In this document: positions 35,290 through 41,018 of the stretch, piece after piece | Position numbering within the stretch: position 1 is the stretch's first letter | How the letters are laid out: each line of letters starts with the position of its first letter | NCBI GenBank assembly: GCA_013152085.1 | Contig: JAADHC010000034.1 | Span: 25,614 to 71,527, forward strand | Source: Chlorobiota bacterium | Lineage (GTDB): Bacteria; Bacteroidota; Bacteroidia; Bacteroidales; VadinHA17 | DNA: 45,914 bases | Direction: 5' to 3' | Notes under the pieces: model-generated | Told to the model about the DNA's origin: nothing | The model's database searches: none | Seen by the model: the letters and a program-made list of their open reading frames with translations, nothing else | Program-made: the position numbers and the translations under genes

Positions 35290-35454
35290 GTCCCGGCAGT
35301 ATGATCGTATGGTTTTTCCTAATAGATTATAAATATTACGCGCTCTTTTATCTTGTTTTTTAATGATATAGACGGGATATTTTTTAGAGCCAATTTTATT
35401 AACAATTGTTCATAACTTATGTGCATACTTTGTGGAAAAGGAGGCCTGAAAATA

Positions 35455-35486
35455 TTTGCACATTTTTACAGCACCATCTATATTTG
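35455..35486 (+). promoter_or_regulatory. promoter of the structured RNA
   Basis: TTTG (35455-35458), 20 nt, then TATATTTG (35479-35486). Both boxes match the Bacteroidetes consensus exactly. No protein start follows at a useful distance; the transcript would begin near 35493 and enter the structured segment. Confidence 0.75.
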
Positions 35487-35492
35487 ACCTAC

Positions 35493-36014
35493 CAAGTGAG
35501 AGATAAAAGGCTGGTTCGAGAAGTTTCGGGTTTGGAAAGGGAAGTTTCGCAAGAGGCCCACCGGAACAAACTCCGCTCGACAAAGTCACTCACGGGAAAC
35601 CGGCAGACCGGGGTCAGCCTTTTTAAAGGGCACGGGAAGCCGGCAGGAAACCCGAAAGGGCGAAATGCCGGGGGACCGATCCAGGAAAACCGGGGAAAAG
35701 TGAGGATCTTTGAAAAGTGTGCTTCGAAAGGGGGAACAGAAAGAATGACCGGAAACGGCCATTCGGACGGGTTCCACTCCCGGATCATCGGGCTTCGGCC
35801 TGGTGTTCAGGAGCCCTTTAAAGAACCACGGTGGCAGATATAAGGCTTGAAAAGAGTCGAAAGTCCAAAACCGGGAAGCCGAGTGATCCCAACGAAAGGA
35901 GGGATGGCAAAGCAGAAGCCATAATAACTGTAACTTGGCACATGCGGAATCCTACGGGAAACCGGATGTGAAAATGGGAAGAAGTTTCGTCCGGAATTTT
36001 TTCCCATTTTTGTT
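35493..36014 (+). ncRNA. candidate ~520-nt structured non-coding RNA, unassigned class
   Basis: A GC- and purine-rich segment between an exact promoter and an intrinsic terminator, not protein-like in any frame. At the 5' end nested helices pair GTGAG (35496-35500) with CTCAC (35589-35593), TCGAG (35516-35520) with CTCGA (35576-35580), and GGGTTTG (35528-35534) with CAAACTC (35567-35573). Next come CCGGCA (35640-35645)/TGCCGG (35666-35671) enclosing CCC-GAAA-GGG (35651-35660); ATGACCG/CGGCCAT (35745-35762) closed by GAAA; ATCCC/GGGAT (35886-35905); CACAT/ATGTG (35939-35970). GAAGTTTCG occurs three times. Three-tiered nesting and GNRA loops argue for a folded RNA. I see no tmRNA tRNA-like ends, no RNase P conserved region and no group II domain V. 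The class and function are unknown to me. Confidence 0.65.
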
Positions 36015-36015
36015 T
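35971..36015 (+). terminator. intrinsic terminator of the structured RNA
   Basis: AAAATGGGAA (35971-35980) pairs with TTCCCATTTT (36001-36010), extendable inwards by three pairs (one of them G-U), and runs into TTTTTGTTT. The loop contains the third GAAGTTTCG copy. Confidence 0.75.
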
Positions 36016-36134
36016 CTATATCCTATTGATCTTATCTACACCCTTTTTCTTCTTTCATCCTCCGGATGTTTATAAATCATCCTTATTGTTTAAATTTTGC
36101 TCCAAACCCTGTTTTAATAATAAAATATACTGCT

Positions 36135-36162: not shown

Positions 36163-36465
36163 ATGCAAACTGTCAGACGGCTGGTCAAAACATTCATCCT
36201 GATTATACTAATCTGGTTTATGGCAGATTCCATGCAATCTTTGCCCTCTCATTCCGGTAGCGGTAGACTGCTTCAAATACCTGGTTCCCTGTCCGGTAAT
36301 CTGAAACTTAATAACGGACCTGAAGGACGGGACCTTTCCGGATGGGTGGATCCGGCTGTTGAAAGGCTGATGAGGCAATGTGAACTGCCCGGGGTACCTT
36401 TTGCCCTTTCCCTCCACGGACATATTATTTATACTAAAGGATTATGTGTTTTACCGTTGCAGTAA
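36163..36465 (+). pseudogene. truncated serine beta-lactamase-like protein (N-terminal remnant)
   Basis: 100 codons: a signal peptide or membrane anchor (about 5-27), a short linker, and then GWVDPAVERLMRQCELPGVP followed by FALSLHGHIIYTKG. That is the opening of class C beta-lactamase-related serine hydrolases, just before the catalytic SxxK, which is missing. The frame ends a few codons into the SRAP start (GLCVLPLQ). So the 5' end of an exported hydrolase gene appears to have been cut and joined to the SRAP gene. Whether the short product is made is unknown. Confidence 0.6.
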
Positions 36466-37175
36466 ATGTTATCCGGGAAGAAATGGAGCGACGGTTTGGC
36501 GCTCGTTTCACAGACCCTTCATGGTTTAAAGCCGGATATCTTTTTTCTGCATTCCGGCTTCCGGTATTACCGGTGATTACCTCTGACGATCCAGAAGCCA
36601 TCCGTCCCGCCAAATGGGGACTGATACCCGGATGGATAAAGAACCGGTCGGAAGCTGATAAAATAAGATACAAAACTTTCAATGCACGTGCGGAAACCAT
36701 TTTTGAAAAGTCCTCTTTCCGCAAGCCAGCTGCCTCTTATCACTGTCTGATTCCGGTGAGTGGCTTTTATGAATGGCATGAAGCACCTTTCGGAAAGATA
36801 CCTTACTATATGTATAAGAAAAAGGAAAAGGTATTTGCACTGGCCGGATTATATAACGAATGGGCAGATCCGCGAACCGGACTTATCGAACCAACTTTCA
36901 CCATTATAACTACCGAAGCAAATCTCCTGCTGGCGAAGATCCATAATACCAAAAAAAGAATGCCGGTCATACTCTCTGTTGGAGATGAAAGACTTTGGCT
37001 GGATACAACCATGCCACAAACCGACATGAAAAAAATCCTCCGACCGGCGGAATATGATGAAATTGGTTACTATCCGGTATCGCGAAAAATTACCCGTAAG
37101 GATGCAGATCCTTATGAAGCCTCTGCCATAGCGAAATATGACTATGGTTATGATCCCTTTAAAAGCGGGCAGTAA
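36444..37175 (+). CDS. SRAP-domain protein (HMCES/YedK family)
   Basis: A 243-residue protein that covalently traps abasic sites in single-stranded DNA through its N-terminal Cys. The key residues are all present: Cys2 directly after the start Met, Asn80 in TFNARAET, Glu110 in GFYEW and His167 in IHNTKKRMP. The start must be ATG 36444, because Cys2 has to become the N-terminus after Met removal. This start lies 22 bases inside the end of the truncated hydrolase frame. SRAP proteins protect stalled replication forks and often accompany the SOS response. No LexA-like box was recognised. Confidence 0.94.
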   Translation: MCFTVAVNVIREEMERRFGARFTDPSWFKAGYLFSAFRLPVLPVITSDDPEAIRPAKWGLIPGWIKNRSEADKIRYKTFNARAETIFEKSSFRKPAASYHCLIPVSGFYEWHEAPFGKIPYYMYKKKEKVFALAGLYNEWADPRTGLIEPTFTIITTEANLLLAKIHNTKKRMPVILSVGDERLWLDTTMPQTDMKKILRPAEYDEIGYYPVSRKITRKDADPYEASAIAKYDYGYDPFKSGQ

Positions 37176-38959: not shown

Positions 38960-39053
38960 CCATATTAAATACGTTTGTTTTGAGACGAAGAGTGTAAACG
39001 GTTTGCTTTTCATTACTCAGAACACGTTTAATGAAAATTTCAAGAATTCAGGG

Positions 39054-40460
39054 ATGATTTCAGGAGGTTTATATACGGATATGTACGAACTGACCATGGC
39101 TCAGGGTTATCTTATTATGGGTAAGCAGGATGAAACGGCCTCTTTTGATTATTTTTTCCGGATGAATCCATATCACGGCGGATTTACCGTTTTTGCAGGT
39201 TTGTGGAATCTCCTGGAAGCCCTTGAAAATTTTTCTTATTCACCCGAAGATCTTGAGTATTTGCGTTCCCGGGGATTCAGGAATGAATTTCTGTCATTTC
39301 TTACGGATTTCAGATTTTCAGGAACGATTTATTCTGTAAAAGAGGGAGAAATTGTTTTTCCGAACGAACCGGTACTTCGGGCTGAAGGAACCCTGATCGA
39401 GACACAGCTTATAGAATCAATCGTGTTGAATTACCTGAATTTCCAGTCGCTGATTGCAACAAAAGCTGCCCGTATTCGTCGTGTGGCCGGTGACCGGATT
39501 TTTGCTGATTTCGGTTTAAGGCGTGCCCAGGGATGGGGCAGTCTTCATGCCAGCAGGGCATCAGTTATCGGTGGTGCAGATGCCACTTCTCATGTTCTGG
39601 CAGGAAAGGAATATGGCCTGGAGATCACCGGAACACAGGCTCATTCCTGGATACAGAGTTTTGATGATGAACTGACCGCCTTCAGAAAATTTACCGAACT
39701 GTACCCGGATGGAGCCGTGCTTCTGGTCGATACATACGATACGCTTCAAAACGGCCTCCCCAACGTTATTACGGTAGCTAAGGAACTTGAAGCCCGTGGT
39801 CACCGGATTGGCGGTATCCGCCTGGATAGCGGAGACCTGGCTTACCTGAGCAAGAAAGCCAGGAGAATGCTGGATGATGCCGGACTCGGGTATGTGAAGA
39901 TTATCGCTTCCAATCAACTGGATGAATATGTGATCCGGAGCCTGAACATCCAGGAAGCACCTATTGACGGCTTCGGGATCGGAACGCGCATGATCACAGG
40001 GATGCCGGATGCAGCTCTCGATGGTGTTTATAAACTCAGCGTTGCAGCGGGAAGTCCGCGGTTAAAAATCTCTGACAACATTGAAAAAGTTACCCTTCCC
40101 GGTGCTAAAACGATCATGCGACTGGTGGGAAATGACGATAAATTTGCCGGTGACGGAATTATCCTCACAAACGAAAACAAACCTGATCGCATTTATCATC
40201 CGTTGGACCCGAGGAAATATACCGATACGGGGAAATACGAAACGGAAGATCTCCTGGAAAAGGTTATGGAAAAGGGAAAAATTGTTATTCCTTTTCGGTC
40301 TCCGGCAGAGATCGGGAAATATGTAAAAGAACGTATGTCACGTCTTCCCGCTGAACATCAGCGGTTTGAGTATCCTCATATATATAAGGTGGGACTTTCG
40401 GGAAAATTAAAGAATCTGAGAAATGACCTGGTGAATGGTCACAGAAATAATAATCCATAA
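39054..40460 (+). CDS. pncB: nicotinate phosphoribosyltransferase
   Basis: A 468-residue enzyme of NAD salvage (Preiss-Handler pathway), forming nicotinate mononucleotide from nicotinate and PRPP with ATP. Diagnostic blocks: GLYTDMYELTMAQGY, FDYFFRMNPYHGGFTVFAGL, IATKAARIRRVAGDR, DFGLRRAQG, TGTQAHSWIQSF, LLVDTYDTLQNG and GIRLDSGDLAYLSK. The ATG at 39054 is used; the frame is open 17 codons further to TTG 39003. It is followed after 18 bases by pncA, forming the salvage pair. Confidence 0.95.
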   Translation: MISGGLYTDMYELTMAQGYLIMGKQDETASFDYFFRMNPYHGGFTVFAGLWNLLEALENFSYSPEDLEYLRSRGFRNEFLSFLTDFRFSGTIYSVKEGEIVFPNEPVLRAEGTLIETQLIESIVLNYLNFQSLIATKAARIRRVAGDRIFADFGLRRAQGWGSLHASRASVIGGADATSHVLAGKEYGLEITGTQAHSWIQSFDDELTAFRKFTELYPDGAVLLVDTYDTLQNGLPNVITVAKELEARGHRIGGIRLDSGDLAYLSKKARRMLDDAGLGYVKIIASNQLDEYVIRSLNIQEAPIDGFGIGTRMITGMPDAALDGVYKLSVAAGSPRLKISDNIEKVTLPGAKTIMRLVGNDDKFAGDGIILTNENKPDRIYHPLDPRKYTDTGKYETEDLLEKVMEKGKIVIPFRSPAEIGKYVKERMSRLPAEHQRFEYPHIYKVGLSGKLKNLRNDLVNGHRNNNP

Positions 40461-40478
40461 CTTTAATCATTTAAAGTC

Positions 40479-41018
40479 ATGAAAGCATTGATCATTGTTG
40501 ATGTACAGAATGATTTTTGCCCCGGTGGTGCACTGGCGGTTAAAGATGGAGATGACATAGTGCCGGTAATTAACCGCATTGCAGGCAGGTTTGATCTGGT
40601 ACTTGCCTCAAGGGACTGGCATCCGGAAAATTCCATTCACTTTGACAAATGGCCCGTGCATTGTGTACGTAATACGCCGGGAGCGGACTATCATCCTGAC
40701 CTGGAAACTGCGCTGATCAGGCAGGAACTGCTGAAAGGAACGGGAAACCATGATGATGGATATTCGGCTTTTGAAGCCACCAATATTAATCTTGCGGATT
40801 TCCTGAAGGAGAAAGGAGTAACGGATTTATACATTGCCGGACTGGCTACCGATTACTGTGTAAAAGCTACCGCGTTGGATGCCTGCAAAAAGGGGTTCCA
40901 CACGTATGTGTTCACCGATGCCGTCAAGGCCGTAAATGCCATACCGGGAGATGAAGAAAAAGCCTTAACTGAAATGAAAGCGGCTGGATGTAAAATGATC
41001 ACCTCAATGCAGCTCTGA
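40479..41018 (+). CDS. pncA: nicotinamidase PncA
   Basis: A 179-residue isochorismatase-fold amidase that converts nicotinamide to nicotinate, the substrate of PncB just upstream. The catalytic triad is Asp8 (IIVDVQNDF), Lys86 (ELLKGTGN) and Cys127 (ATDYCVKATA). Metal ligands are Asp46, His48 and His54 in SRDWHPENSIHF. The length is close to bacterial PncA (about 180-215). Cotranscription with pncB is very likely. Confidence 0.96.
   Translation: MKALIIVDVQNDFCPGGALAVKDGDDIVPVINRIAGRFDLVLASRDWHPENSIHFDKWPVHCVRNTPGADYHPDLETALIRQELLKGTGNHDDGYSAFEATNINLADFLKEKGVTDLYIAGLATDYCVKATALDACKKGFHTYVFTDAVKAVNAIPGDEEKALTEMKAAGCKMITSMQL

Follow-up and report, generated by a model that had tools for sequence, protein, structure and literature searches.

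Analysis of a 45,914-nucleotide stretch of DNA from a Chlorobiota bacterium (referred to here as the window) raised the question of whether positions 35490 to 36013 encode a large structured RNA and, if so, what kind of RNA this is and what it might do. The original prediction, made from the letters alone, had proposed a structured RNA gene of unknown class and had named an Rfam scan, a BLAST search for homologs, and compensatory base changes in these homologs as checks. The proposal was supported: no Rfam or Pfam family was matched, and the homologs carry compensatory changes. Very probably, the segment is a genuine gene on the plus strand whose product is a large, folded noncoding RNA, and the existence of the RNA family is practically certain. 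The prediction had not included a DnaA-box-like array upstream of the gene, the pairing of the RNA end to end, or its wide distribution.

A free-standing RNA gene

The RNA gene is free-standing and has its own promoter and terminator motifs (Table 1). The exact Bacteroidetes promoter that had been claimed for it is present, with TTTG at 35455 to 35458 and, after a spacer of 20 nt, TATATTTG at 35479 to 35486. Among 58 homologous copies extracted by letter pattern (described below), TAnnTTT[GA] was found in 57 and TTG at the -33 position in 52; these copies had been selected with a TTT[GA] condition, which bears on the promoter counts. The terminator hairpin with its U-run was recovered as well, but the 10 bp given for its stem proved too short, as the predicted fold has about 18 bp.

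The segment from 35490 to 36012 showed a GC content of 0.520 and a purine content of 0.616, whereas the two flanks had GC contents of 0.327 and 0.300, in line with the purine- and GC-rich segment between AT-rich flanks that had been described. Folding of positions 35485 to 36015 revealed a minimum free energy of -200.6 kcal/mol (z score, -4.69), and none of 100 dinucleotide shuffles folded as well. Both GAAA-capped hairpins that had been anticipated were seen, CCCGAAAGGG at 35651 to 35660 and CCGGAAACGG at 35749 to 35758. Four overlapping frames across the RNA matched no Pfam family, which agrees with the claimed lack of a protein-like frame. The numbers of stops per frame vary among eight copies.

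Table 1 Features of the RNA gene and its upstream region (positions in the window)
Feature	Position	Strand	Remark
Four DnaA-box-like 9-mers	35396..35439		From sequence and counts in 58 copies
Box 1, TTATTAACA	35396-35404	+	
Box 2, TGTTCATAA	35407-35415		Read as box on - strand
Box 3, TGTGCATAC	35420-35428		Read as box on - strand
Box 4, TGTGGAAAA	35431-35439		Read as box on - strand, TTTTCCACA
Bacteroidota promoter, TTTG-N20-TATATTTG	35455..35486	+	
Structured RNA	35490..36013	+	About 520 nt; ends predicted, not measured
P1, 5' strand CCAAGU	35492..35497	+	Pairs with 35933-35938
Internal loop, 5' strand GAGAGAUAAAA	35498..35508	+	Mostly invariant in alignment A4, partly by selection
P2, 5' strand GGCU	35509..35512	+	Pairs with 35917-35920
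Variable central domain, branched hairpins	35513..35916	+	Conserved among close homologs
P2, 3' strand AGCC	35917..35920	+	
Internal loop, 3' strand AUAAUAACUGUA	35921..35932	+	Alignment A4
P1, 3' strand ACUUGG	35933..35938	+	
P3 hairpin	35939..35970	+	Apical C(UACG)G, UNCG-type loop at 35952-35957
Intrinsic terminator, long stem and U-run	35971..36013	+	

Comparison with known RNA families

Searching the whole window against Rfam 15 (4227 families) at the gathering cutoffs revealed no match, and nothing credible was found over the RNA up to an E value of 10. Scans of 8 and then of 20 homologous loci also gave no credible match over the RNA; the unmatched families include OLE, GOLLD, ROOL, raiA, 6S-Flavo, introns, and SRP. 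The RNA had been said to lack the marks of RNase P RNA and tmRNA, and both genes were indeed located elsewhere in the same genome. RNase P RNA was rejected as a candidate, the only match of the genome to RF00010 being at G000:C69:6250-6626 (257.6 bits). The same holds for tmRNA, for which ARAGORN found nothing in the window and which is encoded at G000:C39:28732-29127 with a score over the cutoff. Carriage by phages or plasmids was not found either: BLAST of the window copy against phage records and plasmids gave no match, although a distant relative would be missed, and seven pattern matches in IMG/VR reached model scores of only 17 to 24 bits.

No title or abstract describing such an RNA was found in the literature, of which coverage was partial, and a report in print is not excluded. 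The microbiome candidates of Fremin and Bhatt range from 27 to 219 bp in the available part of that paper (PMC8040213); because of its length, the whole RNA lies outside that set, although a part of it could be included. Among the Bacteroidetes RNAs that Weinberg described in 2010 are 6S-Flavo (RF01685), Bacteroidales-1, and Flavo-1 (PMC2864571, accessible sections), and the scans included all of these that have an Rfam family.

The RNA family is new in the sense that no relative could be detected in Rfam; by type, the molecule belongs with other large structured noncoding RNAs. According to published abstracts, OLE RNA is also a free RNA of about 600 nt with an elaborate fold, highly conserved nucleotides, and an unsettled biochemical function, but it occurs mostly in Bacillota, whereas the RNA described here belongs to Bacteroidota, measures about 250 to 635 nt, and is accompanied by a DnaA-box-like array. 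The raiA motif (ModT RNA, RF03072) is likewise widespread and structured and affects growth transitions; in the portion of the source that was available (PMC11706538), it is reported from Bacillota and Actinomycetota, and, unlike it, the window RNA has no Rfam match. GOLLD and ROOL are comparable as large ornate bacterial RNAs but are carried by phages or prophages, often close to tRNAs, as far as the accessible text states (PMC12286853), whereas the window RNA is near-universal in its home family and conserved at both ends with a variable middle. CcnA from Caulobacter resembles it as a noncoding RNA tied to DNA replication with weak DnaA boxes in the gene and differs in being 182 nt long, located at the origin, alphaproteobacterial, and presumably activated by CtrA (PMC8959179, in the part available). 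The comparison with CcnA does not include structure. 6S RNA has a closing stem and a large internal bubble, and in these features both 6S-Flavo (RF01685) and 6S (RF00013) resemble the window RNA, which is larger and has no Rfam match.

Conserved frame and covariation

Letter-pattern extraction among 172 scanned sources yielded 88 places, of which 58 were unique, and missed further real copies. The pattern letters comprised parts of the 5' block GA-AG-GA-A and of the 3' block AAC-GTA, and invariance there is partly a result of selection; P1 columns 4 to 8, P2, P3, and the upstream array lie outside the patterns, except for the loose TG that ends the 3' pattern. Alignment A4 contains 57 of the 58 copies, and L005, which ends at a contig end, was left out.

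Analysis of the alignment revealed that P1 closes the molecule, with standard pairs in 342 of 342 cells of the 57 sequences and the exchanges C-G/U-A/G-C, A-U/G-C, and G-C/A-U/U-A. A three-tier nested stem had been predicted at the 5' end; its outer stem is real, but it is the closing helix of the whole molecule, with its 3' strand at 35933 to 35938. P1 and P2 are separated by an A-rich internal loop with strands of 11 and 12 nt (GAGNGAUAAAA and ANAAUAACNGUA) and almost no variation, part of this invariance being due to how the copies were picked. P2 showed the exchanges G-C/A-U and C-G/U-A/G-C, and only 29 of 57 sequences form its fourth pair. In P3, two-sided changes were detected in seven of eight pairs; the inner pair 461-472 forms in 27 of 56 sequences. 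Over the 18 core pairs, 88.9% of the cells were paired, 12 pairs had two-sided changes, and 149 cells were changed on both sides. The core covariation score was 0.457, a value that none of 500 shuffles reached, and sliding the partners by one to three columns left a score of only 0.033 to 0.113. The slide control outweighs the shuffles because the latter ignore kinship.

In each loop strand, a single position varies freely (window-relative positions 13 and 441 of A4, that is, 35501 and 35929). Judged by eye from the rows, the two seem to covary without Watson-Crick logic (A with U/C; G/C/U with A/C), which may be the mark of a noncanonical contact.

The gap between the two conserved blocks ranges from 152 to 524 nt over the 58 copies, and whole extracted copies measure about 253 to 634 nt. 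Compensatory changes were found in this larger context as well: among six relatives, 45 of 136 pairs had changed on both sides, and for the group of six to which the window belongs, the count over the whole RNA was 29 of 156. The central domain is thus variable overall and structured within clades. A short Cyclobacterium copy folded with a z score of -2.77, and 1 of 100 shuffles was as good. The compensatory changes indicate selection on the RNA fold.

Distribution of the RNA in Bacteroidota

BLAST with positions 35440 to 36020, a query that starts downstream of the DnaA-box-like array, revealed one real copy and two stray matches (E values of 0.26 and 0.49) in the genome of the window. Among 60 relatives, 25 showed matches, which in some cases were merely short or weak. 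The copies of 21 relatives share the start, the end, and the kind of promoter and measure 386 to 533 nt, one being cut by a contig end. Two covariance models were used, R1 for the 3' domain (21 sequences) and the broader R2 (42 sequences); the home family and order are those of the window's genome. R2 detected the RNA in 91 of 98 genomes of the home family, with one match each and in 15 of 15 genera, and in 58 of the 61 more complete genomes. In the home order, R1 had matches in 89 of 393 genomes and 50 of 207 genera; the 89 genomes were not inspected singly.

A pattern scan of named genomes gave at least 116 stretches. Scoring of 80 pattern loci with R1, among which L183 to L218 were not included, resulted in 77 strong scores, L116, L118, and L172 being the exceptions. 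Named carriers include Draconibacterium orientale, D. sediminis, D. mangrovi, D. aestuarii, Maribellus, Cyclobacterium plantarum, and Pleomorphovibrio marinus; Mariniphaga anaerophila has two RNA matches, and Aquiflexum lacus was recognized as a carrier by sequence. In a sample of the phylum, 9 of 395 genomes were listed with matches, of which four held up (the window's own genome, G623, G540, and G505, which show both blocks), two remained unsure (G478 and G615), and three were judged false by eye (G567, G552, and G688). The order and phylum searches scored 10 candidates per genome, and the phylum search was of low sensitivity; because only part of the candidates was scored, absence in these large searches is weak evidence. 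The RNA is near-universal in the home family and patchy or poorly detected elsewhere, and it spans Bacteroidales-type and Cytophagales-type lineages.

A DnaA-box-like array upstream of the promoter

In the window, TTATTAACAATTGTTCATAA and, after it, two more TGT[TG] words lie immediately upstream of the -33 element. Words of this kind, located around -83, -70, and -59 relative to the 5' block, were present in 51, 45, and 51 of the 58 copies, respectively; all three occur in 41 copies, two in 9, one in 6, and none in 2 (L120 and L143). In the 41 copies, the array words and the promoter keep set distances. The loose box T[TC][AT]TN[AC]ACA gave 111 matches in 57 of 58 copies (shuffle mean, 9.8; maximum, 17), and the strict box TT[AT]TNCACA gave 15 matches in 12 of 58 copies (shuffle mean, 2.4; maximum, 6); these counts are not independent, the copies being related. 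DnaA-box-like sequences upstream of the promoter thus occur more often than expected by chance. In eight Cytophagales-type loci, the strict box was found within 170 nt upstream of eight of nine copies, a count without shuffle control; it lies at other distances (about -61 to -128), is exactly TTATCCACA in four loci, and is missing from one copy. The Roseivirga copy L120 has no array.

The classic DnaA box consensus is TTATCCACA. The Bacteroidales-type boxes are mostly TTATTAACA-like and thus two letters off this consensus, so that a different regulator could bind. Binding of DnaA at the array is an inference from these letters, and the array no more than hints at a link between the RNA and chromosome copying.

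A palindrome search with up to one mismatch gave sites in 11 of 16 genomes, 11 at the RNA gene and 3 elsewhere, and the reversed control pattern gave none; the palindrome was absent from G027, G426, and G429, which carry the RNA. Two of the three extra sites lie in the same uvrA/LOG-family intergenic region and one elsewhere. In that region, identified by eye, the DnaA-box-like palindrome stands beside the uvrA/LOG-family pair in two relatives (L255, G003:C1:2146799; L256, G004:C24:4941), with TGTTAATA-type repeats after it in G003. This site is possibly a chromosomal origin or another DnaA target.

The array suggested that the RNA gene itself might be located at oriC, and this candidate was not borne out by the GC skew of the one complete genome examined. 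By the usual GC-skew convention, the origin lies at the minus-to-plus switch. In the complete genome of D. orientale, from which 20 samples of 19 to 20 kb were taken, dnaA is at base 514 and the RNA at 421.9 kb; the skew stayed negative between 0 and 1.92 Mb (12 of 12 samples), was positive in four samples from 2.3 to 3.5 Mb, and was near zero in the last four. The minus-to-plus switch, and by that convention the origin, is thus between 1.92 and 2.30 Mb, and under either sign convention no switch is present at the RNA gene. In G003, the 10-kb flanks of the RNA gene differ in the sign of the skew (-0.060 and +0.050), as do many other samples, which makes the signal too noisy. In G003, 1.1 Mb separates dnaA from the RNA, and in G000, the two are on different contigs; in G008, they are 51 kb apart on the same contig, which is suggestive but stands alone.

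Gene neighborhood and duplicated copies

No constant neighbor gene was found throughout the 58 loci; Pfam runs were made on samples of each neighbor type. A divergent biotin-carboxylase gene is located upstream in 21 loci, all of the home-family type. An SRAP gene lies near the RNA in 12 loci of two lineages, downstream in nine home-family-type loci including the window (36444-37175) and upstream in L144, L179, and L195. DnaG primase is encoded downstream on the opposite strand in five loci (L082, L083, L086, L092, and L141), and a frame without Pfam match adjoins the RNA in nine. Both SRAP and DnaG are proteins of DNA repair and replication; without a background comparison, such neighbors in some lineages are only a weak lead.

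Between the RNA and the SRAP gene, the window contains a 100-amino-acid frame (36163-36465) with a signal-like start and no Pfam family. Its end resembles, by eye, the start of a Beta-lactamase-family protein (PF00144) at L144:2987-4321 on the minus strand, a likeness by which the frame may be a gene remnant. Farther downstream (39003-41018), two consecutive frames resemble nicotinate phosphoribosyltransferase and nicotinamidase, by eye only.

In Aquiflexum lacus (L198), two diverged copies of the RNA lie 1.35 kb apart, near 1209 and 2560 of the reverse strand, and flank a frame named by eye as peroxiredoxin-like. Both keep the blocks, P3, and the terminator; the first has one letter changed in the 3' block and is the only one of the two with a strict box. 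Other genomes also have two R1 matches, some in tandem; in L095 (G073:C55), G107:C28, G301:C1, and G190:C1, the two lie 0.5 to 1.5 kb apart. The absence of a single neighbor throughout and the changing places of the copies suggest that the RNA acts in trans.

Possible function of the RNA

For the gene, its family, the conserved structure, the distribution, the promoter, and the box-like array documented above, we tentatively propose a trans-acting RNA that serves through its constant frame as a protein scaffold or regulator and whose transcription is controlled by DnaA (rough probability, 0.45). The scaffold function is inferred from anatomy alone, and the DnaA control is inferred as well. In this model, the ends of the RNA pair in P1 and present the constant 11 x 12 nt internal loop together with P2, P3, and the terminator. 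A protein or protein complex would dock on the constant frame, the RNA would thereby act as a ribonucleoprotein scaffold or regulator, and the central domain, with about 150 to 525 nt between the blocks, would form a lineage-specific arm. DnaA would bind the array, which lies immediately before the -33 element, and set transcription, and the RNA level would then follow DnaA activity, that is, the replication state. The covariation, the occurrence in 91 of 98 genomes of the family, the two diverged Aquiflexum lacus copies that both keep the frame elements, the boxes at set places, the strict boxes of the Cytophagales-type loci, and the palindrome that is mostly confined to the RNA gene speak for this model. 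Against it, no transcript, protein partner, or phenotype is known, 17 of 58 copies lack one or more of the three array words, three carrier genomes have no palindrome, the Cytophagales-type boxes differ in their distances, and the RNA is patchy or undetected outside the home family.

The conserved anatomy also bears on other functions. A very long base-pairing regulator, whose unpaired A-rich strands or middle loops would anneal to mRNAs, possibly those transcribed from replication or division genes, would fit a free-standing gene with its own promoter and terminator and many unpaired A-rich segments, and the 182-nt cell-cycle noncoding RNA CcnA at the Caulobacter origin provides a precedent (PMC8959179, available part). 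The strongest conservation, however, is in a paired frame with an internal loop and not in a single-stranded seed, and the length of the middle changes freely between 152 and 524 nt; we consider such a regulator unlikely. The same internal loop, roughly symmetrical with its 11 and 12 nt between helices, could mimic an open promoter and bind RNA polymerase as in a 6S-like RNA, and the 6S model RF00013 found no match in seven carrier genomes. This silence says little, since the model is silent in the Bacteroidota control too and matches only 5 of 14 controls; moreover, neither 6S nor 6S-Flavo (RF01685) matches the window RNA, P2 has only 4 bp, and the total length is about 250 to 635 nt, which leaves this idea a slim chance. 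A ribozyme would suit the size and the ornate fold, as would an assembly made of RNA only, such as the OLE, ROOL, and GOLLD complexes. The Rfam families of these three are unmatched, and GOLLD and ROOL are phage or prophage borne in the accessible text of the source (PMC12286853), a setting in which the window RNA was not found, given the low IMG/VR scores and the lack of phage and plasmid BLAST matches to the window copy, a search that would miss distant relatives; this possibility appears quite unlikely.

Two further explanations were considered. The DNA could be the functional part, as an origin or as a site that titrates or reactivates DnaA, as datA and DARS do, with the RNA as a by-product or primer. 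The conservation of the array and the similar array in the uvrA/LOG-family intergenic region of two relatives are compatible with such a site. The compensatory changes, in contrast, show that the fold of the RNA is under selection, the copy of D. orientale (0.42 Mb) falls within the run of 12 negative GC-skew samples, and the array words and the promoter keep their spacing in 41 of 58 copies; this explanation has as slim a chance as the 6S-like one. Finally, long open stretches are present on both strands, as might be expected if the segment were not an RNA gene and reflected chance folding, a pseudogene, or a coding remnant. This is contradicted by the conserved compensatory changes, by the lack of a protein family, and by the promoter and terminator kept in homologs, and it is hardly credible.

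Few large structured RNAs are known in bacteria beyond ribosomal RNA, RNase P RNA, and tmRNA, and replication control has been little studied in Bacteroidota. The family described here has no entry in Rfam 15, gives a single match in nearly every genome of its home family, and is present in named strains, and the DnaA-box-like array provides a direct, testable link to replication control in this phylum. A more far-reaching interpretation, which we regard as doubtful at present, is that the proposed scaffold is a near-universal, DnaA-switched RNA of these lineages that would report or enforce the replication state across part of Bacteroidota, with a constant protein-docking frame and a lineage-specific effector domain.
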